This document shows positions 16,594 through 37,997 of a stretch of 64,000 bases of DNA, piece after piece. Position numbers and translations under genes: made by a program. A model generated the notes under the pieces. That model saw only the letters and a program-made list of their open reading frames with translations. It had not been told where the DNA came from and searched no databases. Position 1 is the stretch's first letter; every line of letters begins with the position of its first letter. Source of the stretch: Bacteroidia bacterium (GTDB taxonomy: Bacteria; Bacteroidota; Bacteroidia; B-17B0; Aurantibacillaceae); contig JAEUTQ010000011.1 of assembly GCA_016787445.1 (NCBI GenBank), positions 1 through 64,000 on the forward strand, read 5' to 3'.

Positions 16594-16961
16594 GGGCCCG
16601 ACCGGTTTTGACAGTGAGCGCGGTGGGTAAGTAAGCATGTAGTGCGTTGTGGATATGGCACTTTAATCCTAATTCTCAAAACTATAATTGGCGAAGAGAA
16701 TTCTTACGCTATGGCTGCTTAATCAACTCAGTTGATTCGGCCTTTGCAAACTCAGTAGCGTTTCTGCTTAGCGATTGAGACCTTGCATCATAAAATGGCA
16801 GGTTGTTTTAGTGATGATGTTATCTAAAGCAATATTAGCATCTAAGTTTAGCTTTGGTTTGAATTTATGCCTGGGTTAAATCGAAAATTAAATAAGTTCT
16901 AAACGTGTAGAAAGCTTATCAACTCCTTATTTGGACCAGGGTTCGAATCCCTGCGGGTCCA
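16594..16961 (+). ncRNA. ssrA: tmRNA (ssrA), tag GEENSYAMAA
   Basis: The 5' end GGGCCCG (16594-16600) pairs over 7 bp with CGGGTCC (16954-16960), with one G-U pair. The T-arm contains GGTTCGAATCC, and a discriminator A sits at 16961. CCA is not encoded and must be added. The resume reading frame at 16690-16719 encodes G-E-E-N-S-Y-A-M-A-A, followed by TAA at 16720. The length of about 368 nt is normal. tmRNA with SmpB rescues stalled ribosomes and tags nascent chains for proteolysis. The tag's C-terminal AMAA, in place of the frequent ALAA, is a small variation. The 3' end is the probable integration site of the element next to it. Confidence 0.97.
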
Positions 16962-16967
16962 CAAAAT

Positions 16968-17003
16968 TAAACCCTCTGGAAGCCTTGCTACCAGAGGGTT
17001 TTA
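16968..17003 (+). terminator. Rho-independent terminator after ssrA
   Basis: An 11-bp perfect stem, AAACCCTCTGG paired with CCAGAGGGTTT, has an 11-nt loop and is followed by a T-rich stretch. It lies directly behind the tmRNA 3' end, so it terminates ssrA. It would belong to the integrated element if the attachment core ends at the tmRNA 3' end. Confidence 0.85.
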
Positions 17004-17031
17004 ACTTTTATGTAGTTCTATTTTGGCCCCC

Positions 17032-17057
17032 GGAGTACGGAAATGGAGTACGGAAAT
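17032..17057. repeat. 13-bp tandem repeat between ssrA and the integrase region
   Basis: GGAGTACGGAAAT occurs twice in direct tandem (17032-17044 and 17045-17057). Its position just beyond the tmRNA 3' end and terminator fits integrase arm-type or core-adjacent binding sites of an ssrA-integrated element. That function is inferred from position only. Confidence 0.6.
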
Positions 17058-17150
17058 TTGTTAAACCGTTAATTTATTTGGTTTTAGAATACTCACTTTA
17101 AGTTTTAAAGAACAATAAGTAAATATTATAAATTTTGTTAACTTGCATTT

Positions 17151-17576
17151 ATGGCGTTAAACGAAAGTATAAAAAATTTTGTCGATATAAGTAACCAAGC
17201 TACACAAAAACATTATGAGTGGTTAAGAAATATCTTATTAACAGCATCTGGATTAATTGGCATATTAATTTCATTACATAATACTAAATCAAATTCTGCT
17301 TTACAACATTACTTTTATAGTTTTTCAATTGGTTTTATTGGATTAGGAATTTTATGCTGTTCAATTGCTTTATATGGTGAGGTTCATATTTTAAATAAAC
17401 TAAAAAACAAATTAAGCGGTAACTTGAATGAAGAAATAAAAACTGGTGTAAATCCAAATTCAATAACTGGTATTAAAAGAGATAAAAAATATGACTATTG
17501 TGAAAACATTTGTTATTATTCATTTTCCTTTGGCATTATTTCACTAACGATTTATGCCATATTAATTGATCAGTAA
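17151..17576 (+). CDS. small membrane protein of unknown function
   Basis: The 141-aa protein has three hydrophobic segments, around residues 28-44 (ILLTASGLIGILISL), 55-80 (FSIGFIGLGILCCSIALYG) and 120-140. A Lys-rich loop lies between the second and third. No family is recognised. It is the first gene of the putative ssrA-integrated element, between the attachment site and the convergent integrase, a typical location for small accessory genes. Confidence 0.6.
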   Translation: MALNESIKNFVDISNQATQKHYEWLRNILLTASGLIGILISLHNTKSNSALQHYFYSFSIGFIGLGILCCSIALYGEVHILNKLKNKLSGNLNEEIKTGVNPNSITGIKRDKKYDYCENICYYSFSFGIISLTIYAILIDQ

Positions 17577-17599
17577 TTTTTTACCGATTCTTCAATTAG

Positions 17600-18925
17600 C
17601 TATCGGCCATTATTTTTATGATTTTTCCCAAACACCGAAAATTTCTCCTTTGCTTCATCACGTGTTACTTCCTTATCATAGTAATGCTTGTTTGTAATGG
17701 AAGGATTTTTATGATTAGTTAAAGCAGTTGACGCCACACCAAATTCCTTAAAAGCACTTGTCATGAAAGTCTTTCTTAAGTTTCTGAATGAAATATCTTT
17801 TCCTGTTTTCAATTGTGCATAATAATGCGAAAATGCTCTACTAATTATTGATGCCACATTAGATCTCTTTAATCCGTCTTCTGGTGCTAAAATATACTTG
17901 TTGGTTTTTTTATATGTTTCATATCCCATTTCAAGTAATAACTCACCCAATTCTTTAGTAATAGCAAATGATTTTGTAAATCTGTCGGTCTCGCTAATTC
18001 TATGTCTATTGGCTTTATTAATTTTATGATCAATAGTTTCAATAACATCAAAATTTCCATCATCTTGCAACCTAATATCAGACCATTTTAACTCAACAAT
18101 ATCCTCACTTCTCCCTCCGGTATAAAGTCCAAGCCTGAAAGCAAATTTTAACCATGGCTTATAATGGTTTGTTTTCTTTGCATTTTTTCTTGTTCGCAAA
18201 TTCTTAAGTTGGATTCCGTTCTCCGGGGTAATAATACTTAAAAGAGTCTCAAATTCCTTTTCTTGAATAGATTTTACCTTCGGCACTACCAGCATTTCAG
18301 GAATTCCAAGAAAGGGATTCTGATAGTCAAATTTAAATTTATTAATAATATGCGTCGTAAATGAGCGCATAAGCGCCATATTATTGTTATATGTTTTATT
18401 TGAAAACGAAAGATTCTTTAAAAAATAGTCATGCAAATATCCAACCATATCGTCATTAACTTCTGTAAATTTTAATATTTTCCAATCAACACCATTTATA
18501 TCTAGCGCCATTTTAAAGTTTTGAAAAAGTAAATCATATTTATCAATATGCAATTTGTCACGTTGTTTCTGTTTGTGCTTTGGTACGTTCACATTATTAA
18601 GGTAGCCCATATAATAAGCAAAGCATTCTATTAAACGGGTTGGTACATTCACATTTTTCTTAATTGGTATGTTTTGATACGAATTCTGTTCAAGACTTTC
18701 TTTATAGTCATTGAATATATGGAGCGCCTCACTAAAATGTTTTGCTTTGATAACCTTTAATTTAGTTCCATGTGTAGTTCCGGGAATATGAATTCTAGCC
18801 TTATAAACCAAATTATTGCATTGGCATATTTTCTCCCTATCGTTTGAATAATATCTTTTACAAGTATTACAAAACAGATATAATCCTTTAGGTCTATTTT
18901 TCTTTGGTAGTTGAAGAATTGACAT
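17600..18925 (-). CDS. tyrosine recombinase / site-specific integrase
   Basis: From the ATG at 18925 the product is 441 aa. The N terminus has a zinc-ribbon-like CNTCKRYYS...CQC motif. A SAM-like core-binding region is followed by a catalytic domain with GGRSEDIVELKWSD (box I Arg), FRNLRKTFMTSAF (box II) and HKNPSITNKHYYD (terminal Tyr). Box II reads R-N-L-R-K where most family members have H-x-L-R-H, so both usual histidines appear replaced; the Arg and Tyr are intact. An upstream start at 18982 is possible but would overlap the HTH gene further. It points toward ssrA, as integrases next to their attachment site often do, and probably integrates the element at the tmRNA 3' end. Confidence 0.88.
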   Translation of the reverse strand: MSILQLPKKNRPKGLYLFCNTCKRYYSNDREKICQCNNLVYKARIHIPGTTHGTKLKVIKAKHFSEALHIFNDYKESLEQNSYQNIPIKKNVNVPTRLIECFAYYMGYLNNVNVPKHKQKQRDKLHIDKYDLLFQNFKMALDINGVDWKILKFTEVNDDMVGYLHDYFLKNLSFSNKTYNNNMALMRSFTTHIINKFKFDYQNPFLGIPEMLVVPKVKSIQEKEFETLLSIITPENGIQLKNLRTRKNAKKTNHYKPWLKFAFRLGLYTGGRSEDIVELKWSDIRLQDDGNFDVIETIDHKINKANRHRISETDRFTKSFAITKELGELLLEMGYETYKKTNKYILAPEDGLKRSNVASIISRAFSHYYAQLKTGKDISFRNLRKTFMTSAFKEFGVASTALTNHKNPSITNKHYYDKEVTRDEAKEKFSVFGKNHKNNGR

Positions 18926-19247
18926 CGCTTTCGTACTTATTAAGGTATTTAGAAACAACTTCGTTTTCCGGTGTATAGACAATATATCTTGATGCCGCTC
19001 CAGGCTTACTGTTTTCTACAGGTGCCCTGTTGCCATTAACAGATAACCTCTCATTGATCATTTTCATGATTATATCTTTGTGGATATATCTTCTTTTACC
19101 CAATTCAAGAATCGGGATTTGATTATCAGAGCACCATTTTCTAACAGATCTCTCATCAGTGTACCCCAACAATACCATCAGTTCCTCTAAACCAATCAGA
19201 TTATATTTCTCTTCAAATCCAGTATTATTACAGTTGCCGTTTTTCAT
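18894..19247 (-). CDS. helix-turn-helix (excisionase/MerR-like) protein
   Basis: From the ATG at 19247 the product is 117 aa; an upstream TTG at 19271 is less likely. The central part, LIGLEELMVLLGYTDERSVR followed by WCSDNQIPILELGKRRYIHK, is a winged-helix excisionase/MerR-like DNA-binding domain. Its 3' end overlaps the start of the integrase gene by about 32 bases, so the two are translationally linked. Such small HTH proteins commonly act as recombination directionality factors or integrase regulators. The C-terminal tail is polar and unstructured. Confidence 0.75.
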   Translation of the reverse strand: MKNGNCNNTGFEEKYNLIGLEELMVLLGYTDERSVRKWCSDNQIPILELGKRRYIHKDIIMKMINERLSVNGNRAPVENSKPGAASRYIVYTPENEVVSKYLNKYESDVNSSTTKEK

Positions 19248-19371
19248 GTCAAAATGAGTATATAAAACCAAAAATTAAGAACTCCTTTGAAATCCGCGCC
19301 AGACAAGGCCTCCAGAGGCACTTAAGTCGTTATCAACCTACACTACAACAAAGATAGATGTAATTTTTTAA

Positions 19372-19393: not shown

Positions 19394-19427
19394 ATTTATT
19401 ATAAAATATTCCACATATTTGAACAAA

Positions 19428-19685
19428 ATGAAAAAAGACCTAAAAAAAGTCACAGAAAACGAAGATACCCGTTTATTAATATCACTTGGAGAAAAAATCC
19501 AAAAGCTCAGACTTGAAAAGAAAATGACCCAGCTTGAGTTAGCACGTGAGTGTGATCTTGACAAACAAACTATTTATAGAATAGAGAAAGGTCAACTGAA
19601 TATTACTCTTAATACACTTTTTAAAATTGCTGATGCGCTAGATGTAGTAGCTACGTCCCTAATTACAAGTACAAAAAAACAATAG
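19428..19685 (+). CDS. XRE family transcriptional regulator
   Basis: From the ATG at 19428 the product is 85 aa. The Cro/CI-type helix-turn-helix spans LGEKIQKLRLEKKMTQLELA, then ARECDLDKQTIYRIEKGQLN. It is short, with no sensor domain. It lies right after a perfect 22-bp palindrome and is divergent from the integrase/HTH pair, so it probably regulates itself and possibly the recombination genes. A TTG three codons upstream is an alternative start. Confidence 0.85.
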   Translation: MKKDLKKVTENEDTRLLISLGEKIQKLRLEKKMTQLELARECDLDKQTIYRIEKGQLNITLNTLFKIADALDVVATSLITSTKKQ

Positions 19686-20687: not shown

Positions 20688-21845
20688 TTAAAACCCATTA
20701 CTTATCTGGAATAATGGCATATACATTGCCACCAGGATAAAACCTATAATAAGTCCTAGTATAATGATAAAAAAGGGCTCTATCACTTTGCCAATTACTG
20801 CCTGCTGATGTTCAATTTCTTCGCTGTATTGATTCGCTAACTTATCGAATATCATTTCCGGAGCATTTACCTCTTCGGAAACTTTAATTAATGCAATCAA
20901 TTTCACAGGAAATATCTTATGCTTCTCTAAACTTTTATGGAGACTAGTACCTGAAATTACATCTTCACGAGCTTGATTTAATGCCTTTTCAATTGGATAG
21001 TAACCTATCATATTCTCTACCAATCCTAATGCGTCAGTAAAGAGTACCTTTGCACCCAATAACAACCGCATACTTTGACAAAACCTAGCTAAATAGATTT
21101 TTAGAATTAGTTTATTGACTATTGGTACACGTAAAAAAACACGAGAGGTAACGGATCTGTACCAAATCCTTTTACTCTGTGTTCTATGTATAACAAATAG
21201 AAGTACCGCAATAGAAAGCAAAGAATAAAAGATGAATGATGATTTATTACTTATAAGAATTAATAATTGTGTGGTGGCAGGAAGTTGCCCCCCCGTTTGC
21301 TTAAAAATATCACCGAACATTGGAACCACAAATGAAAGCATAAAATACACTATAAAAATTGCCAATGTAATAACAATGATTGGATAGGTTAATGTACCAA
21401 TAATTTGCCGTCTAAGCTTAATTGCACTTGTGTAATACTTTCCTAATTCAATAAGCACCTCTGATAATTTACCGGTTTCCTCTCCAATCTTTATACTTTG
21501 TGATTCATAGCTTGAAAAAACGTCCTTATGCTTTTCAAAAGCTGCGTAAACCCCTAATCCTTTAAGCACATCTGTCTTAATTTCTATTATTAACTTTAGA
21601 TGTTTTTTATTTGATGTCTCTTGTTCAATTATTTCAAAAGCAGTTTTAATATCAACTCCGGAAGAAAGTAAAACGCCAAGCTCAGAATAAAACCACTCTT
21701 TCTGTTTAGCATCAAATTTTCTTTCAAAAAGTTTAATCTCCGTATTTAATAACTTAGTCAAAGAACCGCCACCGTCACTTACCTTTTGTATAGAAGCGAT
21801 ATTCTCGGGCTTACCTTTATATTTTGACAAATCAATTTGAACCAT
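20688..21845 (-). CDS. type II secretion inner-membrane platform protein GspF-like
   Basis: From the ATG at 21845 the product is 385 aa. It has the two repeated T2SSF domains, around residues 60-180 (KEWFYSELGVLLSSGVDIKTAFEIIE) and 255-385 (LARFCQSMRLLLGAKVLFTDALGLVENM). Three membrane segments are present (near residues 165-190, 215-235, and at the C terminus, IIILGLIIGFILVAMYMPLF). GspF/PilC forms the platform that couples the GspE ATPase to pseudopilus assembly. It is last in the leftward operon and overlaps the GspJ-like gene by 14 bases. Its ATPase partner is encoded 18 kb away in the opposite operon. Confidence 0.9.
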   Translation of the reverse strand: MVQIDLSKYKGKPENIASIQKVSDGGGSLTKLLNTEIKLFERKFDAKQKEWFYSELGVLLSSGVDIKTAFEIIEQETSNKKHLKLIIEIKTDVLKGLGVYAAFEKHKDVFSSYESQSIKIGEETGKLSEVLIELGKYYTSAIKLRRQIIGTLTYPIIVITLAIFIVYFMLSFVVPMFGDIFKQTGGQLPATTQLLILISNKSSFIFYSLLSIAVLLFVIHRTQSKRIWYRSVTSRVFLRVPIVNKLILKIYLARFCQSMRLLLGAKVLFTDALGLVENMIGYYPIEKALNQAREDVISGTSLHKSLEKHKIFPVKLIALIKVSEEVNAPEMIFDKLANQYSEEIEHQQAVIGKVIEPFFIIILGLIIGFILVAMYMPLFQISNGF

Positions 21846-22335
21846 GATCAAAAGCTAATTTCAATTTAGTTTTAGCATCATAATTTTTACAGAAAATCAG
21901 ATGAAATTTTTGTTTCTTAAAATAAACATCAAACTCTAAACATTTAACTATTCTCTTATTTGTAATGTTATTATCAATAATTTCATATTCACATCTACGA
22001 TTACTAATCATAAAAGGGAAATCCTCAACTTTATTAAACCTATTTACCTGCATTAGATCTTCGTGAATATTGACAACTGATTGGCTTGAATCCAAATAAA
22101 ATATATACTTTCCATCCTCACTCTCTTCAATAAATTCTGACTCTTCAAATAATGATTGCAAACGCATACTTACTTCATTCATGTTGTTTAAAAAAGAAGA
22201 GGCCTCGTTAAATTCATAGAGTAGTTTTTGAATATAGCTAACTCCTGTATACGAAAACATTATCAAAATACTCGTAAGAGCTAATGTAACTAACATTTCC
22301 GCAAGAGTAAAAGCTCTAAGTTTTTTATTCGGCAT
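21832..22335 (-). CDS. GspJ-like minor pseudopilin
   Basis: The 167-aa protein starts with a class III signal, MPNKKLRAFTLAEMLVTLAL. Cleavage is expected between Ala8 and Phe9, with Glu at +5. The -1 residue is Ala rather than the canonical Gly. One hydrophobic helix is followed by a beta-rich globular part with a short Cys pair. Size and position between GspI- and GspF-like genes suggest GspJ. Overlaps of 11 bases upstream and 14 downstream show a tightly coupled operon. Confidence 0.75.
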   Translation of the reverse strand: MPNKKLRAFTLAEMLVTLALTSILIMFSYTGVSYIQKLLYEFNEASSFLNNMNEVSMRLQSLFEESEFIEESEDGKYIFYLDSSQSVVNIHEDLMQVNRFNKVEDFPFMISNRRCEYEIIDNNITNKRIVKCLEFDVYFKKQKFHLIFCKNYDAKTKLKLAFDHGSN

Positions 22336-22681
22336 AAATAGTTACGTTTAACTCGCTTAGCTTTTTCCTGTTCAAATTATAAACCTCGATTATAATATCT
22401 TTACAATCTAAAAGTTTATTGTTTCTTATCACTCTTTGAATAATAATAAATTCTTCTTCTTTATATTCTTTATCAAGAATCTCATTTTTTTGTATAGCGG
22501 AAGAAATATACTTACTTGCCAATTCATTAGCTTTTATGCGAATAAATGGCATCGTGCTTTGTTGAATGTTAATATATATAACCACGGCTAAGGTTGCGCA
22601 GATACTGGTCAGTGCAATTGCTACCAAAACCTCCGCTAAGGTACTACCGCTTAATTTACTATTTAAAGCCATTTTGCACAT
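22325..22681 (-). CDS. GspI-like minor pseudopilin
   Basis: The 118-aa protein has the prepilin-like segment KLSGSTLAEVLVAIALTSIC. Gly is at -1, Ser (not Phe or Met) at +1 and Glu at +5. A single hydrophobic helix and a small alpha/beta globular domain follow. The short length fits GspI. It begins inside the 3' end of the GspK-like gene and ends inside the start of the GspJ-like gene, giving the order K-I-J-F in transcription. An internal ATG at 22672 is an alternative start. Confidence 0.7.
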   Translation of the reverse strand: MCKMALNSKLSGSTLAEVLVAIALTSICATLAVVIYINIQQSTMPFIRIKANELASKYISSAIQKNEILDKEYKEEEFIIIQRVIRNNKLLDCKDIIIEVYNLNRKKLSELNVTIYAE

Positions 22682-23904
22682 TTCAACTTATTCTGTGTTT
22701 CAAAAAGCATTGGTATTATTAAAGAAGAAGAAAATTTATGACTATCTAATTCGATATTTAACAAATGATTATCATAAAGTGCTAAAGGAGTTTTAAGCAT
22801 TAATCTATCAACATATACATTTCCGAAATATTTACCTTGTAAACTAGCGTATCCAGAAGAGAATACTACACCGAAAACCTCTACCTCTTTACCTACGTTA
22901 AGCATAGCCTTGTTTTCAATTAATTTACAAGTCACAATAATATCACCCATAATTTTACAATTATCACCAATATAAATTCCAGGCATTTGACTTACCTTTT
23001 TTTCATTATCATTAAAAACAATGAGTGATGATGGATATTCAAGCTCACAATCTTCTTCAATAATAATAGAGTCACTAGCAAGCACATGAACAATACCTTT
23101 AAAACCCTTTTTTATTAGAACTTTTTTCGAAATAATGAATATATCATTTAAGAGAGCTTGGTTTCCTACCACAACTTTATCTGTAGCGATTAGCTTTATA
23201 TTTCCCCTGAGTTTATTATCATTTAATGATATATTACTATTCTCATAAATAGCTGTTTTACCTCTGAAAGAATTGTCGACATTATCAATTATTCCTATTA
23301 AACTATCGGTTTTTAGATTAATGGTTTGTCTTGAATTTTCTAATCGCTTAAGAAACACTCTCGAAAGTTCAGGTAAGCTATTAGGTGCGTTTCGGATAAA
23401 CTTATTGATATTACCGGAGGGATTAAATGAAGAACCTTCTATATCTGTTGCCTTAAATTGCCCCTTAGGGATATAACACAACCCATTTAATCTGATTTTA
23501 CCTGCAATACTTAATGGCCTTGGAAAATCTCTTATTATTAAAGCGGTGTCTGAAGCTACCGAACAACCAAATATTCCGCACTTTAATTGGCTCTGATGAT
23601 TGTTTTTTGTATCAACCGAAATTAAGGAATAGGCCCCCCATTGTCTTGCTGTTACCTTAATTGAGTCATATCCATATTCAGATTTTTTCCATTCACCGTT
23701 ATCAATATCCATAAAAAAGGATGATTGAGCATAATTAAGCCCGGAAATAAGGTTGTGTCTCAGTTGCTCTGTCCCAATACGACTTAAAACTTGCTTTTGA
23801 TTAAACCAAGCAATCAAAATAAATATACTTAGCATTACACCAATTAAAATACTAATGATTAATGCAATATAAAGTGCGCCACCTTTTAATTTATAAATTG
23901 ACAT
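22663..23904 (-). CDS. GspK-like pseudopilin with beta-helix-like domain
   Basis: The 413-aa protein has an N-terminal KLKGGALYIALIISILIGVM segment. It is pseudopilin-like and lacks Glu at +5, as GspK tip proteins do. The long C-terminal part has regularly spaced hydrophobic strands (LIATDKVVVGN, IFIISKKVLIKKG, VHVLASDSIIIEE, then GIYIGDNCKIMGDIIVTC and NVGKEVEVFGVVFSSG). This pattern resembles a parallel beta-helix or bactofilin-type fold and is not the usual GspK globular domain. Its position first among the pseudopilin genes supports a tip role. No closer family is recognised. Confidence 0.6.
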   Translation of the reverse strand: MSIYKLKGGALYIALIISILIGVMLSIFILIAWFNQKQVLSRIGTEQLRHNLISGLNYAQSSFFMDIDNGEWKKSEYGYDSIKVTARQWGAYSLISVDTKNNHQSQLKCGIFGCSVASDTALIIRDFPRPLSIAGKIRLNGLCYIPKGQFKATDIEGSSFNPSGNINKFIRNAPNSLPELSRVFLKRLENSRQTINLKTDSLIGIIDNVDNSFRGKTAIYENSNISLNDNKLRGNIKLIATDKVVVGNQALLNDIFIISKKVLIKKGFKGIVHVLASDSIIIEEDCELEYPSSLIVFNDNEKKVSQMPGIYIGDNCKIMGDIIVTCKLIENKAMLNVGKEVEVFGVVFSSGYASLQGKYFGNVYVDRLMLKTPLALYDNHLLNIELDSHKFSSSLIIPMLFETQNKLKCAKWL

Positions 23905-24608
23905 TAAGTAGTGGTTGTTTGTGATTTTTCGGTGTTATTCGATTTATTGGGATCTTGGGTTTTCCTTTTAAAGATTCCCTTTGTTTTTTTCTCAGTAGAA
24001 CCTTTTTCCTTTTCTAAAGAGTCGTTATTATTTTCAGACGACTTCTTTGACTTTTTGTTTTGCTTAGCACTTATAGCTACTTCATCGCCGTTTTTATATT
24101 CTTTTGTATCGATTACTTTCCCCGTTATATCATAGGTAAAAAACTTACCGTTTAGCTTATCCTTCTTAAAAGTGCTTTTAGCCATTAGCCTGCCATTTTC
24201 ATTATACAACATATAAACTCCGCTCTTACGTCCATCCCTCCAATTGATAATCTCTTTTAATTGACCATTGCTATACCAGTATTTCCATTCTTTATTTTTC
24301 AACCCATATTTTAATTCTCCTTGCTCTTTGAGCTGATTGTTCAAATAAAATGATTTAAAATAACCATGTAACAATCGCCCGTCAAATCCACCGCTAGTCT
24401 CAATTATTTGATTTGATTTATACCATAAATAAATTAAATCATTCTGAGTTTTTATTTTTTTTCCTTCTTTTAATATTTGAGTCTTAACGGTATAATCAGA
24501 ATAATTGACAGTTATATTGAAAGCTTCGATTTGGCTAGGACTTACAAAACTTTGCGCCTGTACAGCTATTCTTAATAATAGAAGAAATAAAATAGAAAAT
24601 CGAATCAT
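23904..24608 (-). CDS. secreted MORN/YwqK-like repeat protein
   Basis: The 234-aa protein has a signal peptide (MIRFSILFLLLLRIAVQAQ) and three or more MORN-variant repeats: GRLLHGYFKSFYLNNQLKEQ, GLKNKEWKYWYSNGQLKEII, and GRKSGVYMLYNENGRLMAKS. The repeats match the YwqK-type pattern common in Bacteroidota secreted proteins. The C-terminal 50 residues are highly charged, with Lys/Asn/Ser runs. It is first in the leftward secretion operon, with its stop overlapping the GspK-like start. It may be a periplasmic accessory of the secretion system. A one-mismatch -7 box (TAATATTG, minus strand 24625-24632) lies just upstream. Confidence 0.7.
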   Translation of the reverse strand: MIRFSILFLLLLRIAVQAQSFVSPSQIEAFNITVNYSDYTVKTQILKEGKKIKTQNDLIYLWYKSNQIIETSGGFDGRLLHGYFKSFYLNNQLKEQGELKYGLKNKEWKYWYSNGQLKEIINWRDGRKSGVYMLYNENGRLMAKSTFKKDKLNGKFFTYDITGKVIDTKEYKNGDEVAISAKQNKKSKKSSENNNDSLEKEKGSTEKKTKGIFKRKTQDPNKSNNTEKSQTTTT

Positions 24609-24901: not shown

Positions 24902-27900
24902 ATGAGCTTAATAAAAAACATTTTCAAATCACTACCACTATTTATTGCATTCAATACATTTTCGCAAAATGTAAATGAGTTTACAGGATCGTTAAACCAT
25001 GGAATTCCGCTGATGAATGTTCCCTCTAATAAAGGAGGCGGAGTTAATATTTCTGCCTCCTATAATGCGGGAATCGGGGTTAAGCAACCAGCCAGCGAAA
25101 TAGGTCTTGGCTGGCAATTAAATGCCGGAGGAGCAATTTATAGAAGTGTTTTTGGTTTACCTGATGATGGCTTTAATATGGATGTTTTTGATTCAAAAAC
25201 AAAAAACTTCAATCAGCAAAACGGAATTCTATACGGTGGTGGGGACGCTGAAATATATAGAACAAGTAGGAATATGGATTCATTAGAATTTATGTTTCCT
25301 GAATACGATGATTACCAGGTATCAGGACCTGGAATTGGAGGAAGGATGACGCCATTTATTATGGACTATGAAATGTTTACTAAGGATGATAATTACGATA
25401 AGAGATTTTTTAAAGACCCAACCTACTACGGAAAAACTAGGTCACCTCAATTTCATTTTAATGGAGATTTTGCAGATACACTAGTATCAAGACATTACTC
25501 CGTTACGCCAATTTCAGGTTCAACACCATTTACTTTACCAAATCAAACTATTAGTGGATTATATTATAACAATGATGAACCATACCTCGGAAAAAGCATT
25601 ACTGGCTCATCAATAACAGCTCAAAATTATGATCCGTCAACTATGCGACTTGCATCCTCAAACTACATTGAATATTTTAGAAACAGTAGAATTGATTCCA
25701 TTTCTATTAATAATCTAGCTGGTTTTATAAACTATCAAACTTCTTGTACTAGAAACTCTTCAGACTTTCCATCAAATGGTATTGGCGCTTTCAGAATTAC
25801 AACATCTGCGGGATATGTATATCATTACTCCCTTCCTGTTTATATAATAAGAACGGAAAACCATAATTACCCTCTTGAAAATGATTACAATGTACCAACC
25901 TACGATCTTTCGGCATATACTAATAATCCAAATGACCAATACTATACATGGACTCAAAACACTGAGATAGTTACTAAACATAAAATCAACAATAAGTATG
26001 CTTATCAATGGTTGCTAACTGCCATTACCGGGCCTGATTACGAGGACTCCAACAATAATCATATTGTTGATGTTGCTGACAAAGGTTATTGGGTGTACTT
26101 TGATTACAAGAAATGGAGTGGCGATTTTGCGGTAAGGTCTCCTCACTATGGTTTTGATTATTATTTCGGTTTTGATGATAATTCTAAAACCTTACCTGCA
26201 TCACAACCTCTTACCGGAACTAATTATAAATTGACCGGAAAATCAGGAATTGTTAATCTTACCATTAAACAAGTCTATCATCTATCAAAAATCCAAACAT
26301 CAAGCCACACAGCTATTTTTGTGCGAGAAACACGAAATGATGAAGTAAGTGGCCACGGTGCAACCTCATTGACTTCATCAATTACACCAACACCTATTCT
26401 AAGCACCAAAAGAATTATCTTGTTTAAAAACGATGCTTTCGATTCGATTCCTGCACCAAACTCTACAATTACATTTGGCTGGGGATTAAATGACTTCTAT
26501 ACAACAAATGGCTCGGGTTATTTTTATGGGGAAAATTGGTATACTACTTATGCAAATACCATCAAGAATAGAATACTTAAACATGTTGAGTTTAGTCAAG
26601 ATTATTCACTATGCAGAAAGTATCAGGGAAATGTACATGCAAAATCATTAAATACCAGCGTTGTAAGTTCGCCATCAACCGTGCAAAGCAATTTAAGCGT
26701 TCAAACATACTCGCTGAGCGGTAAACTTACATTAAATAAAATTACCATTTATGATTTTACCAATGTAAAAACCCTACCCTCCACAGTTTTTGATTATAAT
26801 GTTTCAGTATCTAATGATAATCCCGATTACGACCCACGAAAAATTGACTATTGGGGGTTTTATAAGTCAGATATTACGGCAAACGGATATAGTGGTTACA
26901 CCAGTCATATATCAAAAGATTATACCGATGCATGGAGTCTTCGAAAAATTACAGAACCTTTAGGGGCAGTTTCTGAATTTGAGTACGAGTCTAACTCTTA
27001 CTCAAAAGTACTTGACAACAAATCTTCATCAGGATATCGGGGCGCAAGCTTTATATTTCCTTTCAAGTCCATTGCACTTGCCGCTAATCCAAGAGATTTA
27101 GACATTACACTTGAGGAAGGCAGCGCAACACCTAATGAATTTCTGCCCCTTATTTCAGGAACTATAACAGGACTCTCAAAAAAAATGTGCTTGCCTCTGA
27201 GTATCACACCAATTGATCCAAAATATCCTGACAATTATTATCATATAAGTCATCTTTTCTTTGGTAATTGCTCATTTACCGGAACTGTTTCACCACTCAA
27301 TTTTACAAATGTTGAGCGCTCAGGATACCAATATATTGGCAACGCTAATTGCTATGATGATGGTGGATATACCATTAATTTCCGCCCAGGTGAAGGTGAT
27401 GGAAATTATGGTTACCAAGGCTCAGGATATGGCGGTGCTGAGATGACTTATGCCGGATATGGATATTTGCATTTTGAAATGCCTTCTACATATGAAGTTT
27501 ATGGAGGGGGGATTAGAGTGCGGAAAATCAAAACAAAAAATAACGATAATGAAATTTATGTTACGGAATATCAATACGAGAACGGCGTTGCCAGCATGGA
27601 AGCTGATCGGTTTGAATATCCAGGATTAAAAAAGGGTTGTGGAGTTTCTAATGGATTCATGCCGCGACTTACACCTATTAGTTTCGATAAGCATTCCCTT
27701 GGCTATGGTATAGGTTACGGAAAAGTAACAGTTAAAAACAAAGGCCGGTCTAATACGGCAAATGGTTCTGTGGTTAATGAATTCATAAACTCTAATCCTA
27801 TTAGTGGCAGTACAAAAACCGATGATTTTAAAATGTTGCATTTCTATTCAACCAATTCGGGTGATTTAAGAAATTTATTCGAATGTATTGACAAGTTTTC

Positions 27901-29413
27901 GCCTTTCTGGGGTTTAACTAGAGAATCAAAAGTACTGGATGTAAATAATAATATTGTAAGCAGAACTGTTTACGAATATGAAAACACAGAACAAGGTGCA
28001 ATTGTTGAAAATTTCGTTTTTAGAAATTCTGTCTCAGATGATTATTATTCCAACGTTGACAATGTATGCATTTTGAGACACTATCCCGCTGTATTGAAGA
28101 AGACTAAAAATTACGGAATGGGTTCTTATACTGAATCAGAAGTTTTAAAACGAGATGAAATTACAGGTGAGACTAGTTTAATGCGTAGTATAGGACAAAA
28201 TGCCAGCTCTTCATTAATATCAAAAGTTCCCGCATTCAGAATATCCACATACGCGAATATGGGACCTAAATCTATCAATGCGTCCTACAAAAACATTCTT
28301 AGTCCGGAAGCTTATAGTTATTCTGCGATTGATACAACGATATCTACGAATGGCTTTGCCAATGCAATTGCAATGACCTATACTAATCAGTCGAATGTTC
28401 TTACATACAATGGCAATTATCCATTCAGTGTACAAACAAACACCTTAAATTATTGGAAATCATGGCTGAGTGCTAGTTGGACCGGTACTGTAGGTTCAAT
28501 TAATGAATATGGTCTGCATAAACGCTCTGAATTAAATTCTAATCCATATAATTTCTCTAATCCACTTGGAAGTAGTGCATATTGGCGATTGAGTACGGAA
28601 ACAACTCTTTCTGACGAAGTAGGACACGCACTTGAATCGAGAGATTTTAATAATCGTTTTAATTCAATAAAATTTGGATATAATAACTACTACTTGAATT
28701 CAAGTTGCTCCAATGCTAACTACTCTAGCTTTACCTATGCCAATTTTGAAAGCATTAAACCAAACACAGGAGGTACAACTGTGGATGGCGAAGTTCTATT
28801 ACCAACCAGTAACGGTTCTTTAACCACTACTACAGCGCATACTGGGTATAGGTCACTTTGTTTAGGTACAGGAAGCACCTCATGGTATCAGCTTAAAGTT
28901 GGCAATAATGGTTCTTATGAAACGGGAATTGAAAGGGGTAGAATTTATCGTGCTATAGTTTGGGTAAGTACGTCTAGCCCTAATAACGCTTCACTTAATG
29001 TTACTTTGGATGGAAAAATTTCAGGAGTACCTTACAGCCAAACTTACACTATGTATGCCAATGATGCAAGCGCCATTACTGTTGGTAATTGGAAACGCCT
29101 GTCATTAGAGTTCAAATTACCAGACAACTTTGAAGATAACTCTAATTCTGCCAACGTTAAAGTCTATTTAATAGGAGGTTCCAGTAATTCGTATTTTGAT
29201 GACCTGATTTTTTATCCAGTTGAAGCTAGTTTTAAAGGCAATGTATATCATACAGGTAACGGACGTGTGATAGCTGAAATCAACCAGTTAGGTTATGCAA
29301 CCTTTTACACTTATGATGCTGCCGGTAGAATTTTAGAGATCAACCAAGAGATTCCTGGATCTGGTATAAAATTAATCAAACGCAACTCTTACAACTTTGC
29401 CAACACTAACTAA
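24902..29413 (+). CDS. giant secreted RHS/YD-type protein
   Basis: The 1503-aa protein has a signal peptide, then VNEFTGSLNHGIPLMNVPSN with an SpvB-like start to a beta-rich shell (ISASYNAGIGVKQPASEIGL, GWQLNAGGAIYR). The central 1000 residues are aromatic and Asn/Gly/Ser rich without a clear catalytic motif. A jelly-roll, carbohydrate-binding-like segment is at about 1290-1440, and a YD repeat (GYATFYTYDAAGRILEINQE) is near the C terminus. It lacks an RHS core or toxin domain of its own; these are in the 1895-aa protein two genes downstream. It probably supplies part of a shell or surface structure with that protein. Such pairs recur in Bacteroidota. Confidence 0.75.
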   Translation: MSLIKNIFKSLPLFIAFNTFSQNVNEFTGSLNHGIPLMNVPSNKGGGVNISASYNAGIGVKQPASEIGLGWQLNAGGAIYRSVFGLPDDGFNMDVFDSKTKNFNQQNGILYGGGDAEIYRTSRNMDSLEFMFPEYDDYQVSGPGIGGRMTPFIMDYEMFTKDDNYDKRFFKDPTYYGKTRSPQFHFNGDFADTLVSRHYSVTPISGSTPFTLPNQTISGLYYNNDEPYLGKSITGSSITAQNYDPSTMRLASSNYIEYFRNSRIDSISINNLAGFINYQTSCTRNSSDFPSNGIGAFRITTSAGYVYHYSLPVYIIRTENHNYPLENDYNVPTYDLSAYTNNPNDQYYTWTQNTEIVTKHKINNKYAYQWLLTAITGPDYEDSNNNHIVDVADKGYWVYFDYKKWSGDFAVRSPHYGFDYYFGFDDNSKTLPASQPLTGTNYKLTGKSGIVNLTIKQVYHLSKIQTSSHTAIFVRETRNDEVSGHGATSLTSSITPTPILSTKRIILFKNDAFDSIPAPNSTITFGWGLNDFYTTNGSGYFYGENWYTTYANTIKNRILKHVEFSQDYSLCRKYQGNVHAKSLNTSVVSSPSTVQSNLSVQTYSLSGKLTLNKITIYDFTNVKTLPSTVFDYNVSVSNDNPDYDPRKIDYWGFYKSDITANGYSGYTSHISKDYTDAWSLRKITEPLGAVSEFEYESNSYSKVLDNKSSSGYRGASFIFPFKSIALAANPRDLDITLEEGSATPNEFLPLISGTITGLSKKMCLPLSITPIDPKYPDNYYHISHLFFGNCSFTGTVSPLNFTNVERSGYQYIGNANCYDDGGYTINFRPGEGDGNYGYQGSGYGGAEMTYAGYGYLHFEMPSTYEVYGGGIRVRKIKTKNNDNEIYVTEYQYENGVASMEADRFEYPGLKKGCGVSNGFMPRLTPISFDKHSLGYGIGYGKVTVKNKGRSNTANGSVVNEFINSNPISGSTKTDDFKMLHFYSTNSGDLRNLFECIDKFSPFWGLTRESKVLDVNNNIVSRTVYEYENTEQGAIVENFVFRNSVSDDYYSNVDNVCILRHYPAVLKKTKNYGMGSYTESEVLKRDEITGETSLMRSIGQNASSSLISKVPAFRISTYANMGPKSINASYKNILSPEAYSYSAIDTTISTNGFANAIAMTYTNQSNVLTYNGNYPFSVQTNTLNYWKSWLSASWTGTVGSINEYGLHKRSELNSNPYNFSNPLGSSAYWRLSTETTLSDEVGHALESRDFNNRFNSIKFGYNNYYLNSSCSNANYSSFTYANFESIKPNTGGTTVDGEVLLPTSNGSLTTTTAHTGYRSLCLGTGSTSWYQLKVGNNGSYETGIERGRIYRAIVWVSTSSPNNASLNVTLDGKISGVPYSQTYTMYANDASAITVGNWKRLSLEFKLPDNFEDNSNSANVKVYLIGGSSNSYFDDLIFYPVEASFKGNVYHTGNGRVIAEINQLGYATFYTYDAAGRILEINQEIPGSGIKLIKRNSYNFANTN

Positions 29414-29422
29414 TACATTGAT

Positions 29423-29845
29423 ATGAAAAAAACATTATTAATAATCTTTTCGCTTTGCTGTTTAAGTAATCTTAACGCGCAAGACGATTTTGAAATCAAT
29501 TTTGTTCGTGAATCTGTAAAATCCTTACTAGATCCGGAAACTGATAGTCTATTTATTGACAAAGCTGAAATCAAAATATTTGAGGCGAATTCAGCTTCTT
29601 CCATTGAGGTTAAATTTTATGACTTTGTAAATAACGATTTTAATTTATCCAACTCGGCTAGTAACAACTTAAGCTCACTCACATCCAATAACTGTAACCT
29701 TCCTTTGTGCTTTTATAAGCTTAATGACAATTTGATTTATGTTTTCTTAAGCACTAAAACGGATTTAAGCTCCAGACAAAAAGTTTTTATTAAAGTTAAC
29801 GGTAAGGCAGGTAAACAAACCGTTACCAAAGAAGTAGAACTATAA
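29423..29845 (+). CDS. small secreted protein between two RHS-type genes
   Basis: The 140-aa protein has a signal peptide (MKKTLLIIFSLCCLSNLNAQ). The mature part is predicted beta-sandwich-like (IDKAEIKIFEANSASSIEVK, then VFIKVNGKAGKQTVTKEVEL), with a CNLPLCF cysteine pair. It is separated by only 9 bases from each giant neighbour, so it is certainly in their operon. No family is recognised; an adaptor or chaperone for the RHS proteins is a plausible guess only. Confidence 0.7.
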   Translation: MKKTLLIIFSLCCLSNLNAQDDFEINFVRESVKSLLDPETDSLFIDKAEIKIFEANSASSIEVKFYDFVNNDFNLSNSASNNLSSLTSNNCNLPLCFYKLNDNLIYVFLSTKTDLSSRQKVFIKVNGKAGKQTVTKEVEL

Positions 29846-29854
29846 AACAAAACT

Positions 29855-32800
29855 ATGTTAAATAGAATATTAACGTTAATACTTTTAGTTAGTTCAACCT
29901 GGGTTGTACGACTAGGGGCTCAAACCTACACTGTAGAATTACAACCTGATTCCAGGGGTTATGATGCTATATTATCAAGTGCCAATGGTGGAGTTAACTA
30001 TGGTAATAACACCCGCATCAGAGCTTCACGTAATACTTCATCGCAATATGAGAGAACACTCATGATGTTTGATTTAAATTCAATTCCTTCTAATGCTGTT
30101 TTAGTTTCTGCTAATCTTTACTTATATGGTTCTAATCACACAGGTTCCGGTTCAAACTCCTCTTACTTACAAATTGTAGATAAACCCTGGAGCGAAGGCT
30201 CTATTACATGGAATACTGCTACCAGTATGGCAGGTGCAACCAATCAATTAACCTTAACGGCCTCTGCCGGCGCAACTGATAACTACACCCTTAATGTGAA
30301 AACAAGTTTGCAAACCATGGTTAACACCCAGGCTCGCAATTTTGGTTATCAGTTAAAGTTAGTTACTGAAAACAATACCAATGCGCAGATGGAATTCTAC
30401 AGCAGTGATGAAACCACAAATCCAACTAAACGACCAAAACTTATCATTACCTACGAATTGCCTCTTGACATAAAGATGAATGTCACCTCTACCTCTACTA
30501 CATCGGCAACAGATGGTGCCATTAACTTATCGGTTTTTGGAGGTACAGCTCCCTTTACTTTTGCATGGTCCAATAGTGCTACTACACAAAACGTGAGCGG
30601 ACTTGCTAGTGGAGTATACACTGTAACTGTTACGGATGCCAATAGTGTTCAGGCAAAAAAAATAATCCCGGTTGGTTGTTATGTAGGCAGTAACACCTTT
30701 ACCATTAAATCAGACGCACTCTCTTTTAAAGATGCAAACCTTCAAACCGCTACCCTTGAAGCTGCCATTGCTAATACCAATTACGGTACTTTAATTAATA
30801 ATCAATGTTTGTATCAAAACATTGCCAACGGATGGAATACAACAAGAGCTGTAATGGCCTTTGATTTAAGTTCTATCCCTTCCAATGCAGTTCTTCAAAG
30901 CGCAACTCTAAAAATAACCCATCAGGCTAATCCAACTATTACCTCCAGTGTACAAATCATGCCTTTAAAAGGAGAATGGAATGAAAGTACCGTTACCTGG
31001 AACAATCAACCTGCGGCGGATGCTGCCTCTGCGATTACGTTTACTGTTTTAAGTGGTACTACTGCTTATACACTAAACGTACTGACTCATTTACAGAAAA
31101 TGATTAATGAAGGTACTACTGAGAATGGTTGGTTACTTCGTCAGCAAAATGAAACAGACCAGCGTTCGGGTTTAAAGTTTTATTCTTCTGATCACTCCAA
31201 TACTGCAAAACCTGAAATCACCATCACCTATACCTTACCTGCAAACAGCAACGATAAGAATTTAAACTGGACAAAAACCGAAGTCTTTGATGAGAATGGA
31301 AACGTAATTAGTTCGGAAAAATCCTATGCCGATGCTTTAGGCAGAAACATGCAATCTTTAAGTAAAAATGCCTTTAATGAAGTGTTTGCCTCGCAAGTTG
31401 TGTATGATCAATATGGTCGTCCTGCATTAAATACACTTCCCGCCTATGTAGGTAACAGCTTAAATTATCAAGATGGATTTTTTAAAAACAACAGTGGGGT
31501 AAATTACTCTTACAAAGATTTTGATACCACTACCACATTAAATAACCCTAACGGATTACAAAATACAGTAGTGGGTACCTTAGGAAATTACTACAGCACT
31601 AACAATCCCTTTGATAAATACCAAGCAACTGCTACCCATCCATACAACAGAGTTGAGTATACCTCTGATCCTTCTTCATCTGTTAGGCGGGTGGCTAAAC
31701 CCGGCAATCAATTTAAAATGGGCTCTGGTAGAGAAACCTATAACTTCACTATGGTCAGTGGGAATGAATTGAACGTTGTTTACTCTTCTTTGTCTTTTAA
31801 AGTCAAACATAGTCTTAGTGCGCCATTGACCAATACTGCACTAACCGTTGGATTAATGGCCGCTCAAAAATCGATAATTGTAACGCCTGATAGTAAGGAG
31901 GCTATTTCGTTTTCTATAGGTAATAAAATAATTGCAACTTGTATTAGCGGACTAACGACTAACAATTGCTCTTTTGCAGCGCAATCAAACATGAACTGGT
32001 ACGGAACCAAAAGCACTGACATTCATTTACCGGATGTAAACAAAACAAGTCTAAAATTACCATTACCGACTTACACAATAAGTGGTGTTAGTTATACCGT
32101 TAGTACTTCTGACATTACATATACAATTACTAATTTATTTAATGATAAAATATTAGTAAGTAACACAGACTACACACTAAATACTTCTACAAGATCAGTG
32201 ACTTTTGGATCAACCTTTCTGAATGGTTATACCGGCAAATCGCTCATGCTTCGTTTAAGTTTTGATTTATCTACCTCTCTTACAAATACTATAATTGCGC
32301 AAGGCGGGGTAATTTCAAACGCATTAGCAACTTATAGTTTAGATTATGGACAATGGAGTCTTAACTTCTACGATTTAGCAGGTAATTTGAGAGTTCAATC
32401 TTCTCCAAAATTAGTTGGTTGCGCTGTTTCAAGTTCCTCATTAGCATCAACTATTTATGATTATAGTCACTTAGGTCAGGTTATTACTCAATCTCACAAT
32501 GAAAAAGGTATTACTCGGAATGTTTACGATAAGGAAGGTAAATTAAGATTTTCCCAAAATGCAGAACAACAAAACACAAAGCGTTATTCATATATTAATT
32601 ACGATGCAAGAGGGCGTATAATAGAAACCGGCGAATACAACGTAGGAACCTTAACCGGCACAACCAATGTTGCCTTCATGGATTATTATGGTGGTACATA
32701 TGGATATAATTCAGGAAATATCTTCACAAACTCTATTATTAATAATTTAGATGGATTACTCAATTCGCAATGTGAAAATATTTTCTACACTTCCTATGAA

Positions 32801-35542
32801 GCACCGAGTGGTGGTGATGATATACCGAGTGCTTATACTTATTCAGCCCAGTACATGGGTAAATATTTAAACGGTGCTGTGTGCCGTACCTGGAACTCTC
32901 AAACAAGTACCTGGTACAATTATGACAAACTGGGACGATTAATCGCAACGGTGAAACAAATTTACGATAGCGAATACACCTCGTATAAAACAAACATTGA
33001 TGATCAAATAAAAACCAGTGAAACTACTTACAACAACTTTAACAGTTTGGTTACCTCTAGTACCTTCCAAAAGAATTTAAGTACTGAGCTCCTGGAAGTA
33101 AAACCTGTATACGACATCGCGCTTAGGCCTTATATCACTTACATCAACTCCTTTGCCGGAAGCGGCATCAAAACAAGTGAAGTGAAGTTTGATAAGATGG
33201 GGCGTGCTGTAAGAAACATCATCGGAAACAACCTGCAAGGTGTAGACATGGTTTATACCCTTGATGGAAACTTAAAAGCTATTAATCATCCCGCCTTACA
33301 CAGCTCTCTTGACAGAGGGGGCGATGCCGGAGATTTTAGCGGTTCAAATCCTTTTGCCGTGAACAGCGATTTATTCGGAGAGATTTTAGAATACCATTAC
33401 AACGATTATGAAGCTGCAAACTCCTACTCGGTTAACTCCATTACCTCGGGTAATAGTATTTACGATGGTTTAATTTACAGTCAGCGTTTTAAAGTACCGG
33501 ATGTGGTAAATGGTGTAAACACCGGAGCTAATTATATTGATTGGGCCGGTGCTAATCAAACTCAGTTACACAGCCCTGCCAGTCCTGAAACCAAGGAAAT
33601 GATTTTTAAGTATACGTATGATCAATACAAACAACTCGCTACTTCTTCCTTTGGTTTATACAACAACAGCAGTAATGTTGTAACTGCCCGCAATGAATAC
33701 CGTGAGGGTGGGCCTTCATCAGGAAACATTACCTATGATGCTAACGGAAATATTACACGCTTGGTTCGTGCTACTTACAGTGTGAGTGGCTCGCTTAAAT
33801 ACTATGATGACTTAACTTATACTATCTCTACCAATGGCAATCAGGTAAGTTCTATACTGGATGCTGCTGTAAATAGTTTTGGAAGCAACGTTAACTTTAA
33901 AACAGCTACCACTACAACTCCTCAGAATTTTACTTACAATGCCATCGGACAAATGACAGTAAGCCCTGCTGAAAACATTGCTACCATAACTTACTATCCT
34001 AATGGGCAGGTTAAACAAGTTACTTTTAATAATGGAAGCACCACGCAATATTTTTATGATGACCAAGGGCAGAAATACAAGGTAAAATACTATGATAACA
34101 TTAACGACCGAAATAAAATAACCTGGTACATTGGTGCAGCTATTTATGTTTTTGATGATAACATTGGTGCTCAAATCAACTTAAACGAGATGAATACGCC
34201 AAGCGGACAAATACGCAAAAACGGCAGCAACTATGAAAACATTTACAGCATCAGTGATCACTTAGGTAATGTACGCGTAACCTTTACTGAAAGTGGCATC
34301 GGAAACGGTGTAACCATATTAAGCTACAACGATTACTATGCATGGGGTGGTACCCTGCCGGGAAGAGGTTATGTAAACACTGCTTATCGTTATGGCTATC
34401 AAGGACAGGAAAAACCCGAAGACGGTTCTCTCTGGGATCAGTTTGAACTCCGTCTCTTTAACCATGACCTGGGTCGTTGGTTCGCTCCTGACCCTTATAA
34501 CCAATACCACAGCCCGTATCTTGCTATGGGGAATAATCCTATTAATGGTGTTGACCCGGATGGTGGGTATACGTATCAAATGACTAATGAGTCTGCTCGT
34601 TTGGGAAGAAACAAAAGACAAATGGATTACGAAAAGGGAATTGGTGCAGGATATTGGTCGCAGGAAAATCTAACAAAAGAATACAGGAGACGATACAAGG
34701 ACATAATTGACAGAAATAACCTAAGGTATGCTGGAAAAGAAGGCGTGGAAAACTTCCAAGCAGAAATGAAATTACTTAACAATGAATTTCAAGGACTTGG
34801 ACTATCTGGAACAGTTTTAGAGACAGGTGTTGAAATTATGACCCAATCACAATGTGTATTATACCAAAACGGAACATTTGATTTAAAATCTCAAATGGGA
34901 GGGCCATTACTAGAAACCGGTTGGGACAAAGAAGGAACGGGACAAATAATACCATCTCCAGATGATGTTATAATGAGTTCAGCGAATGGTTATGATTTAC
35001 AAGAACAGGAAAAGGCTGGAATACTAAATTCTTTTGGTGGGGTGGGTTTGTTTGATATCATTAACTTTGGATCAGCAACTAACGATGTCATTTCATATGA
35101 TGAAACAGGATTAAAACAGTATTTCGCAATTGTAGCTGGTGAATCAGGAGACAACTATTTGGAAGCACAAGCCATAGGAGAGGTTATTTTAAGAAGGCTT
35201 GATTACAAAGGAGCAAATTTAACTAAAGATTTTGTTAAGTATATAGGTGGAGAAGCTCAATTCGATGCGATTGGAGCTCCAATATACAATGAAATAATGA
35301 ATTCTACTTTTCAAGAAATCTTTAGCTCAGATAATGCGTATTCTACCCGTATACAAGGTGCGCTGCATGCTTTAATTAACCCAAATGAAAACGTATCAAA
35401 AGGTGCATATTTTTGGAATGCATCTTCGCCTGAATCAGGTTTTATTTGGAGAACATATAACAACGGTGTGTTTGAAATAACTACCTCATACGGTGGAACT
35501 ACATTTTTCCAATACGTTGACCCAAAAAAACATTGGCCTTAA
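29855..35542 (+). CDS. RHS-repeat polymorphic toxin-like protein with variable C-terminal domain
   Basis: The 1895-aa secreted protein is modular. A signal peptide is followed by a DNRLRE domain (about 25-200), an SprB-type repeat (GGTAPFTFAWSNSATTQNVS, about 205-275), a second DNRLRE domain (280-460), a DUF6443-like segment (from about 470), YD/RHS repeats, and the RHS core end (DLGRWFAPDPYNQYHSPYLA, NNPINGVDPDGG) near residue 1568. After this boundary the remaining about 325 residues are unrelated to the shell. They contain AGESGDNYLEAQAIGEVILR near residue 1763 and GAYFWNASSPESGFIWR, which resembles SleB-type cell-wall hydrolases. A toxin aimed at peptidoglycan is inferred. It is followed by a candidate immunity gene. 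Confidence 0.82.
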   Translation: MLNRILTLILLVSSTWVVRLGAQTYTVELQPDSRGYDAILSSANGGVNYGNNTRIRASRNTSSQYERTLMMFDLNSIPSNAVLVSANLYLYGSNHTGSGSNSSYLQIVDKPWSEGSITWNTATSMAGATNQLTLTASAGATDNYTLNVKTSLQTMVNTQARNFGYQLKLVTENNTNAQMEFYSSDETTNPTKRPKLIITYELPLDIKMNVTSTSTTSATDGAINLSVFGGTAPFTFAWSNSATTQNVSGLASGVYTVTVTDANSVQAKKIIPVGCYVGSNTFTIKSDALSFKDANLQTATLEAAIANTNYGTLINNQCLYQNIANGWNTTRAVMAFDLSSIPSNAVLQSATLKITHQANPTITSSVQIMPLKGEWNESTVTWNNQPAADAASAITFTVLSGTTAYTLNVLTHLQKMINEGTTENGWLLRQQNETDQRSGLKFYSSDHSNTAKPEITITYTLPANSNDKNLNWTKTEVFDENGNVISSEKSYADALGRNMQSLSKNAFNEVFASQVVYDQYGRPALNTLPAYVGNSLNYQDGFFKNNSGVNYSYKDFDTTTTLNNPNGLQNTVVGTLGNYYSTNNPFDKYQATATHPYNRVEYTSDPSSSVRRVAKPGNQFKMGSGRETYNFTMVSGNELNVVYSSLSFKVKHSLSAPLTNTALTVGLMAAQKSIIVTPDSKEAISFSIGNKIIATCISGLTTNNCSFAAQSNMNWYGTKSTDIHLPDVNKTSLKLPLPTYTISGVSYTVSTSDITYTITNLFNDKILVSNTDYTLNTSTRSVTFGSTFLNGYTGKSLMLRLSFDLSTSLTNTIIAQGGVISNALATYSLDYGQWSLNFYDLAGNLRVQSSPKLVGCAVSSSSLASTIYDYSHLGQVITQSHNEKGITRNVYDKEGKLRFSQNAEQQNTKRYSYINYDARGRIIETGEYNVGTLTGTTNVAFMDYYGGTYGYNSGNIFTNSIINNLDGLLNSQCENIFYTSYEAPSGGDDIPSAYTYSAQYMGKYLNGAVCRTWNSQTSTWYNYDKLGRLIATVKQIYDSEYTSYKTNIDDQIKTSETTYNNFNSLVTSSTFQKNLSTELLEVKPVYDIALRPYITYINSFAGSGIKTSEVKFDKMGRAVRNIIGNNLQGVDMVYTLDGNLKAINHPALHSSLDRGGDAGDFSGSNPFAVNSDLFGEILEYHYNDYEAANSYSVNSITSGNSIYDGLIYSQRFKVPDVVNGVNTGANYIDWAGANQTQLHSPASPETKEMIFKYTYDQYKQLATSSFGLYNNSSNVVTARNEYREGGPSSGNITYDANGNITRLVRATYSVSGSLKYYDDLTYTISTNGNQVSSILDAAVNSFGSNVNFKTATTTTPQNFTYNAIGQMTVSPAENIATITYYPNGQVKQVTFNNGSTTQYFYDDQGQKYKVKYYDNINDRNKITWYIGAAIYVFDDNIGAQINLNEMNTPSGQIRKNGSNYENIYSISDHLGNVRVTFTESGIGNGVTILSYNDYYAWGGTLPGRGYVNTAYRYGYQGQEKPEDGSLWDQFELRLFNHDLGRWFAPDPYNQYHSPYLAMGNNPINGVDPDGGYTYQMTNESARLGRNKRQMDYEKGIGAGYWSQENLTKEYRRRYKDIIDRNNLRYAGKEGVENFQAEMKLLNNEFQGLGLSGTVLETGVEIMTQSQCVLYQNGTFDLKSQMGGPLLETGWDKEGTGQIIPSPDDVIMSSANGYDLQEQEKAGILNSFGGVGLFDIINFGSATNDVISYDETGLKQYFAIVAGESGDNYLEAQAIGEVILRRLDYKGANLTKDFVKYIGGEAQFDAIGAPIYNEIMNSTFQEIFSSDNAYSTRIQGALHALINPNENVSKGAYFWNASSPESGFIWRTYNNGVFEITTSYGGTTFFQYVDPKKHWP

Positions 35543-35549
35543 TAACTCA

Positions 35550-36263: not shown

Positions 36264-36333
36264 CATTTTAATAACAAGATGCTTTAAACTAACCTAAGTG
36301 TAACCCGTATTAAACCAAATTAAAACCTAGTGT

Positions 36334-37991: not shown

Positions 37992-37997
37992 CCCAAA

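Follow-up and report, generated by a model that had tools for sequence, protein, structure and literature searches.

The segment 16594-19247 of the window (i.e., the whole stretch of 64,000 nucleotides that was analysed, with which a contig of 137,947 bp begins) very probably represents attL, the left boundary of a genomic island of 50.75 kb that entered the tmRNA gene, ssrA, by site-specific insertion at its 3' end. This reading, drawn from sequence comparison, rests on: (i) 26-bp core repeats; (ii) doubled 13-mers at both ends; (iii) an integrase gene and an HTH gene at attL; (iv) a genus-mate (G007) in which the chromosomal flanks of the island enclose another element. The case is well supported and belongs to an ordinary class, i.e., a tmRNA-targeted island with a clear end signature, at a site which is common to unrelated serine-recombinase islands. 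Islands of ssrA as such are already known: the integrase is a new subfamily, while the island is a further example of that known class. The features of the left end are the following:

16594-16964, plus strand: ssrA (tmRNA), integration target with its 3' end preserved (ARAGORN, Rfam RF00023).
16938-16963, plus strand: attL core, 26 bp of the tmRNA 3' end, with an exact copy at 67690-67715 of the contig, outside the window.
16964-17031, plus strand: terminator-like hairpin (by folding), between core and arm sites, proposed as an island-borne replacement for the ssrA terminator.
17032-17057, plus strand: tandem 13-bp repeat, proposed integrase arm-type sites of the left end, with an identical copy at 67588-67613 of the contig.
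17151-17576, plus strand: 141-aa protein with hydrophobic stretches, encoded between the arm sites and the integrase gene.
17600-18982, minus strand: tyrosine recombinase, i.e., the integrase (Pfam Phage_integrase, PHROG integrase, alignment of 8 homologues).
18894-19271, minus strand: small HTH protein (HTH_17), plausibly an excisionase or directionality factor, its gene overlapping that of the integrase.
19419-19685, plus strand: HTH_3 regulator (HTH_3, E 4.9e-15), divergent from the xis-like and integrase genes.

The ssrA gene extends from 16594 to 16962 (ARAGORN) or 16964 (Rfam RF00023, 123.6 bits) and encodes the tag peptide GEENSYAMAA. On its 3' side lie, in order, the terminator-like hairpin, the doubled 13-mer, the 141-aa ORF (for which no Pfam family was found), the integrase on the minus strand, the overlapping HTH gene and the divergent HTH_3 gene. 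The 26 bp of the tmRNA 3' end (16938-16963) are found again, as an exact direct repeat on the same strand of the same contig, at 67690-67715, i.e., 3.7 kb beyond the end of the window. The earlier note had seen no second tmRNA 3' end in the window, rightly, and had suggested a search for one downstream. Over 100 kb of the contig, with up to 6 substitutions allowed, these two copies were the only ones found, without a third core. Just inside each core is a 26-bp arm pair, exactly the same at both ends (17032-17057 and 67588-67613), in which the 13-mer GGAGTACGGAAAT occurs twice in tandem. Elsewhere in the 100 kb scanned, the 9-bp arm motif occurs as one single copy, at 68164, outside the island; no further one was found between 17.1 and 67.5 kb. 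The island thus extends from 16964 to 67715 (50,752 bp), and 16594-19247 is its left end only. The layout core-arms ... arms-core is what one would expect after integration of an element that has both kinds of site. Base composition does not set the island apart; a GC shift was thus rejected as an island marker. The tandem 13-bp repeat, reported downstream of ssrA in the earlier note and left there without explanation, can be considered as a mark of the element's ends: both of them have it, and it is conserved along with the integrase.

Among the 87 genomes of the order, 11 have the pattern GGAGTAMGGNNNNGGAGTAMGG, at 25 sites in total, whereas the reversed control gave no hit. These sites were sorted by script into 9 left-type, 12 right-type and 4 of neither type. 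Left-type arms begin 68-77 bp past the end of an RNA gene at all nine sites (6 ssrA, 2 tRNA-Met, 1 tRNA-Leu); for all twelve right-type sites, the gene end or a variant of it ends 100-102 bp past the arms (7 ssrA, 1 tRNA-Leu, 4 variant cores). Given this recurrence, the constant distances to ssrA and tRNA ends and the absence of control hits, the doubled 13-mer is most likely the arm-site pair of the integrase. At the level of the class, the motif is present in 5 of 395 genomes, three of them already known from the family, with one control hit. Beside the tRNA-Met gene of G070, a related pair with a 13-bp period, GGAGTCGGA, was read by eye; the usual motif search with 4 mismatches gave nothing there. 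No description of the island or of the 13-bp motif was found in the literature searched, which was mostly open-access.

The hairpin at 16964-17031 has a folding energy of -21.6 kcal/mol (z -4.0, 200 mononucleotide shuffles). It is absent from the output of a simple terminator scan, but folding does support it. A hairpin is found within the first 70 nt past the RNA gene end at all ten left ends folded (z -3.7 to -6.9, mononucleotide shuffles), i.e., six of the window integrase type and four adjoining proven or apparent serine recombinases; the native right flank also has one (z -4.3). Elements of both recombinase classes thus seem to bring their own ssrA terminator.

The integrase adjoins attL and is transcribed toward ssrA; the earlier note had described a tyrosine recombinase pointing at ssrA, and this identification is borne out on the minus strand by Pfam Phage_integrase (31 bits, cut-off 27.1). 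PHROG integrase families are matched as well; NCBIfam gave no match. According to the alignment of homologues, the start is probably near 18925. In the alignment of 8 sequences (the G084 fragment being left out), R291, K320, R403, H424 and Y434 are invariant, and the residue three before R403, R400 in the window integrase, is variable. A search of PDB with a two-sequence integrase profile gave no sequence match, thus the roles of these residues, which we take to be of catalytic type, are putative and assigned from general motifs. Three N-terminal cysteines (CxxC..C motif) are invariant in the eight integrases, window copy included (17603-18982), and perhaps form a zinc-ribbon arm-binding domain. 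With a full ORF and the putative catalytic residues kept, the integrase appears intact as judged from its sequence. Of the excisionase-like HTH gene proposed in the earlier note, the HTH gene overlapping the integrase stands; the excisionase role is plausible but weak, since the HTH_17 score (23.3 bits, E 7.8e-5) is under the Pfam cut-off of 27.

Matches to the integrase at E <= 1e-60 are found in 8 of the 87 genomes, its own included. Full-length relatives near 70% identity are present in three genomes, each time in association with ssrA: at the gene itself in G072 and G087, and at a second tmRNA 3'-end copy, 23.6 kb downstream of ssrA, in G017. Both ends of the G072 element were found, 45.7 kb apart. 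More distant integrases (about 35-38% identity) adjoin tRNA genes in G106 (Met), G102 (Leu) and G070 (Met). G084 has a truncated integrase copy at ssrA; on its contig C55 (L130), two tmRNA-end copies 313 bp apart are followed by arms and the truncated integrase, and this locus is a decayed element.

The cargo within the window comprises:

20688-24608, minus strand: T2SS GspF, two pseudopilins, an unnamed 413-aa protein and a MORN-repeat protein.
24902-37962, plus strand: RHS/YD-repeat proteins and Por_Secre_tail proteins.
37989-45407, plus strand: pseudopilin, prepilin peptidase, T2SS ATPase, secretin and accessory proteins.
45655-64000, no strand assigned: unnamed genes and defence-like genes, the island running on to 67715.
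51422-52285: HEPN protein, defence-like.
54116-55636: VPA1262-N-like protein, far under the NCBIfam cut-off.
57807-60680: Upx-like protein (PADLOC E 2.7e-20; NCBIfam 89.8 bits for a cut-off of 1900).

T2SS parts, RHS/YD-repeat proteins and T9SS-tail proteins occupy 20.7-45.4 kb, and defence-like genes span 49-67 kb; the guess of the earlier note that the element may run to the right and include the secretion and defence regions was correct. It is possible that the Upx-like and VPA1262-N-like genes form, with two unnamed genes, an undescribed defence operon inside the island. No relaxase or conjugation genes were recognised with Pfam (the island proteins scanned) or with PHROG and NCBIfam (a subset), several proteins being unnamed. 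In the same way, no virion or replication genes were recognised in the Pfam scans or with PHROG (a subset). The island may have become a defective remnant, i.e., fixed at its site with excision lost, and it is in favour of this that no mobilisation genes were recognised among the island proteins scanned. However, the integrase ORF and the HTH gene are undamaged, as are the cores and arm pairs, which match exactly between the two ends, and such a loss, while possible, is doubtful.

In the genus-mate G007, the same gene is found to the left (94% identical; 92-94% for the left genes overall), then ssrA, then a different element, the first gene of which encodes a large serine recombinase with Resolvase, Recombinase and zinc-ribbon domains (E 3.6e-27 with the CcrB model). 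About 36 kb further on, 168 bp are 96% identical to C75:67710-67877, right of attR, native terminator included, and from PhnA on, gene by gene, the identity with the region right of the attR of the window island is 86-99%. Both genomes thus share the chromosomal frame and differ in the insert. The downstream side of ssrA was inspected in the loci of 18 relatives, the gene end being recognised by script in 15 (not in G012, G015 and G017); in one of these 15 (G002), the contig ends at the tmRNA end. An ORF against ssrA resembles a serine recombinase in G001, G011 and G035 (by eye, not by Pfam), and the remaining loci have other genes or apparent remnants. The PhnA side of the window was found in G007 only, with a distant likeness to efflux genes further right in G015 and G035. 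A truly empty ssrA site with both flanks was found in no relative. The earlier note had asked for this comparison, and had named as evidence against an integrated element identical neighbours of ssrA in all relatives and the lack of a direct repeat of the tmRNA end: the neighbours differ and the repeat is there, so that neither part of this objection holds.

The secretin is present in 23 of the 87 genomes. G007 contains a 31-kb T2SS/RHS block (C2:537988-568897, L076-L078) that lies outside the serine element, with the native ssrA flank on one side and PhnA on the other; no att repeat was recognised at the ends of this block. The position of the cargo thus need not stem from one insertion. In G085, which belongs to another genus of the family, tmRNA, serine recombinase and T2SS/RHS cluster are in a row (C7:96662-123184; L163, L164), the cluster being a few kb from ssrA. 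The T2SS-cluster proteins of G000 and G007 are 31-75% identical, whereas the flanking genes are 86-99% identical; in the secretin tree, which includes 15 of the 23 secretin-bearing genomes, G007 joins G085 (support 0.97) and not G000. On these grounds, separate arrivals of the T2SS/RHS clusters of G000 and G007 are favoured, and vertical inheritance of the T2SS shared at this locus with G007 is not. Nor is T2SS an obligatory cargo of ssrA: it is near ssrA only in G000, G007 and G085, while in the other 20 secretin genomes the secretin is on another contig or far from ssrA, or ssrA is unmatched (G022). It must be noticed that the secretin is far from ssrA in G060 and G061, which consist of 1 and 2 contigs, respectively.

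The locus could be composite, i.e., a smaller integrase element and one or several older islands (T2SS/RHS, defence) gathered separately at ssrA, the inner att sites being lost and the outer repeats bounding several elements. The divergent T2SS/RHS cluster of G007, in the same ssrA-PhnA interval at another position, is in agreement with this, and so are the tandem elements at ssrA in relatives (the second core copy with its integrase in G017; several right ends in series in G092, G089 and G087). However, the absence of a third core (<=6 substitutions) and of any extra 9-bp arm motif between 17.1 and 67.5 kb makes a composite locus unlikely. A prophage or a plasmid-derived integrated element is very improbable: tyrosine integrases also occur in phages and that of the window matches PHROG integrase families, but virion and replication genes were not recognised in the island, and the integrase has no match in 50,697 phage and 72,556 plasmid records and none confirmed in viral contigs. 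This origin was rejected, the integrase being without phage, plasmid or viral-contig relative. A fortuitous association of repeats and integrase near ssrA, without functional link, has a practically negligible probability given the exact 26-bp repeat pair, the identical arm pairs at both ends and the recurrence of this layout where integrases have diverged and other RNA genes are targeted.

For a single island inserted at ssrA, the following mechanism can be proposed. The attP of the circular island would have recombined with the T-arm/acceptor part of ssrA; in the integrase, the N-terminal domain would bind the doubled 13-mers, whereas contact with the core would be made by the core-binding and catalytic domains. 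The island would rebuild the tmRNA 3' end and supply a new terminator, and the HTH protein would direct excision. Since no transfer machinery was recognised in the island, it would have to rely on a helper or on DNA uptake to pass from cell to cell. Integration sites in tRNA and tmRNA genes have reportedly been classified by Williams in 2002, with insertion in the T-arm/acceptor part and restoration of the 3' end; these classes describe the general class and not the window integrase.

The ssrA islands of Dehalococcoides (PMC3146451) are bounded by 20-bp direct repeats, and their integrase genes lie at attL, in reverse orientation; several islands are in tandem, some are without integration module, and they have no self-transfer genes. 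The window island is similar by its place at the ssrA 3' end, its direct repeat and its integrase at attL on the reverse strand (PMC3146451). On the contrary, DsiB of Dehalococcoides is a CcrB-like serine recombinase, unlike the tyrosine recombinase with doubled 13-bp sites of the window; the G007 element is nearer to these islands than the window island is (PMC3146451). The IntCTnDOT/NBU1 group, as outlined in PMC8138268, comprises tyrosine integrases of Bacteroidetes in which arm-binding domains go together with arm sites in subterminal position; the target of NBU1 is the 3' end of tRNA-Leu. The window integrase is likewise a tyrosine recombinase with subterminal proposed arm sites but, in a comparison by description, it differs by the N-terminal Cys motif, the ssrA target, the lack of recognised mobilisation genes and the lack of an NCBIfam or PDB match (PMC8138268). 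The 10K island of Riemerella anatipestifer, also in Bacteroidota, excises, and inserts at an RNA gene, by means of an integrase that it encodes itself (PMC6764341). It differs by its target (tRNA-Arg), its size (10 kb) and its att (53 bp) (PMC6764341).

In G087, G089 and G092, right-type ends occur in series, 2.0-5.6 kb apart, without integrase between them; the loci concerned (L121, L124:4910-6975 and L126:7658-15834) lie behind ssrA-type att sites. Four units share one left-end sequence, found at 4 sites in 3 genomes and nowhere else in the 87 genomes (control 0, <=3 mismatches), each time about 100 bp behind an arm pair. The units contain a PemK toxin-like gene, a DDE transposase, possibly an AbiEii-like gene, and a peptidase. 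As the assemblies of these three genomes are drafts, the series could be due to misassembly. Islands of ssrA without integrase are known in Dehalococcoides, but the arms at one end only have no counterpart in the available part of that account (PMC3146451). In addition, extra short tmRNA-end copies, 170-190 bp apart and each followed by a different terminator-like sequence, are located downstream of right ends (L122:1131, L125:6601 and 6776); they are possibly scars of earlier insertions.

As a tentative proposal, on the improbable side, the ssrA end would serve this family as a landing strip, much like that of an integron. A single subfamily of tyrosine integrases, with a doubled GGAGT-type 13-bp arm code, would insert there both large islands and small integrase-less units. 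These units, which have arms only at their right end and contain, in G087, G089 and G092, toxin-antitoxin-like, transposase and peptidase genes, would stack up behind an attR already in place. Unrelated serine-recombinase islands, with the same T2SS/RHS cargo class, would compete for the site.

The doubled 13-bp motif provides a specific marker for element ends in other Bacteroidota, at ssrA as well as at tRNA genes. An RNA gene present in a single copy can receive a secretion (T2SS/RHS) cluster and defence-like genes together, as one block, and relatives swap blocks at one address using two unrelated recombinases. Should the integrase-less units prove mobile, ssrA would act as a collecting point for cassettes, with a single integrase serving it.
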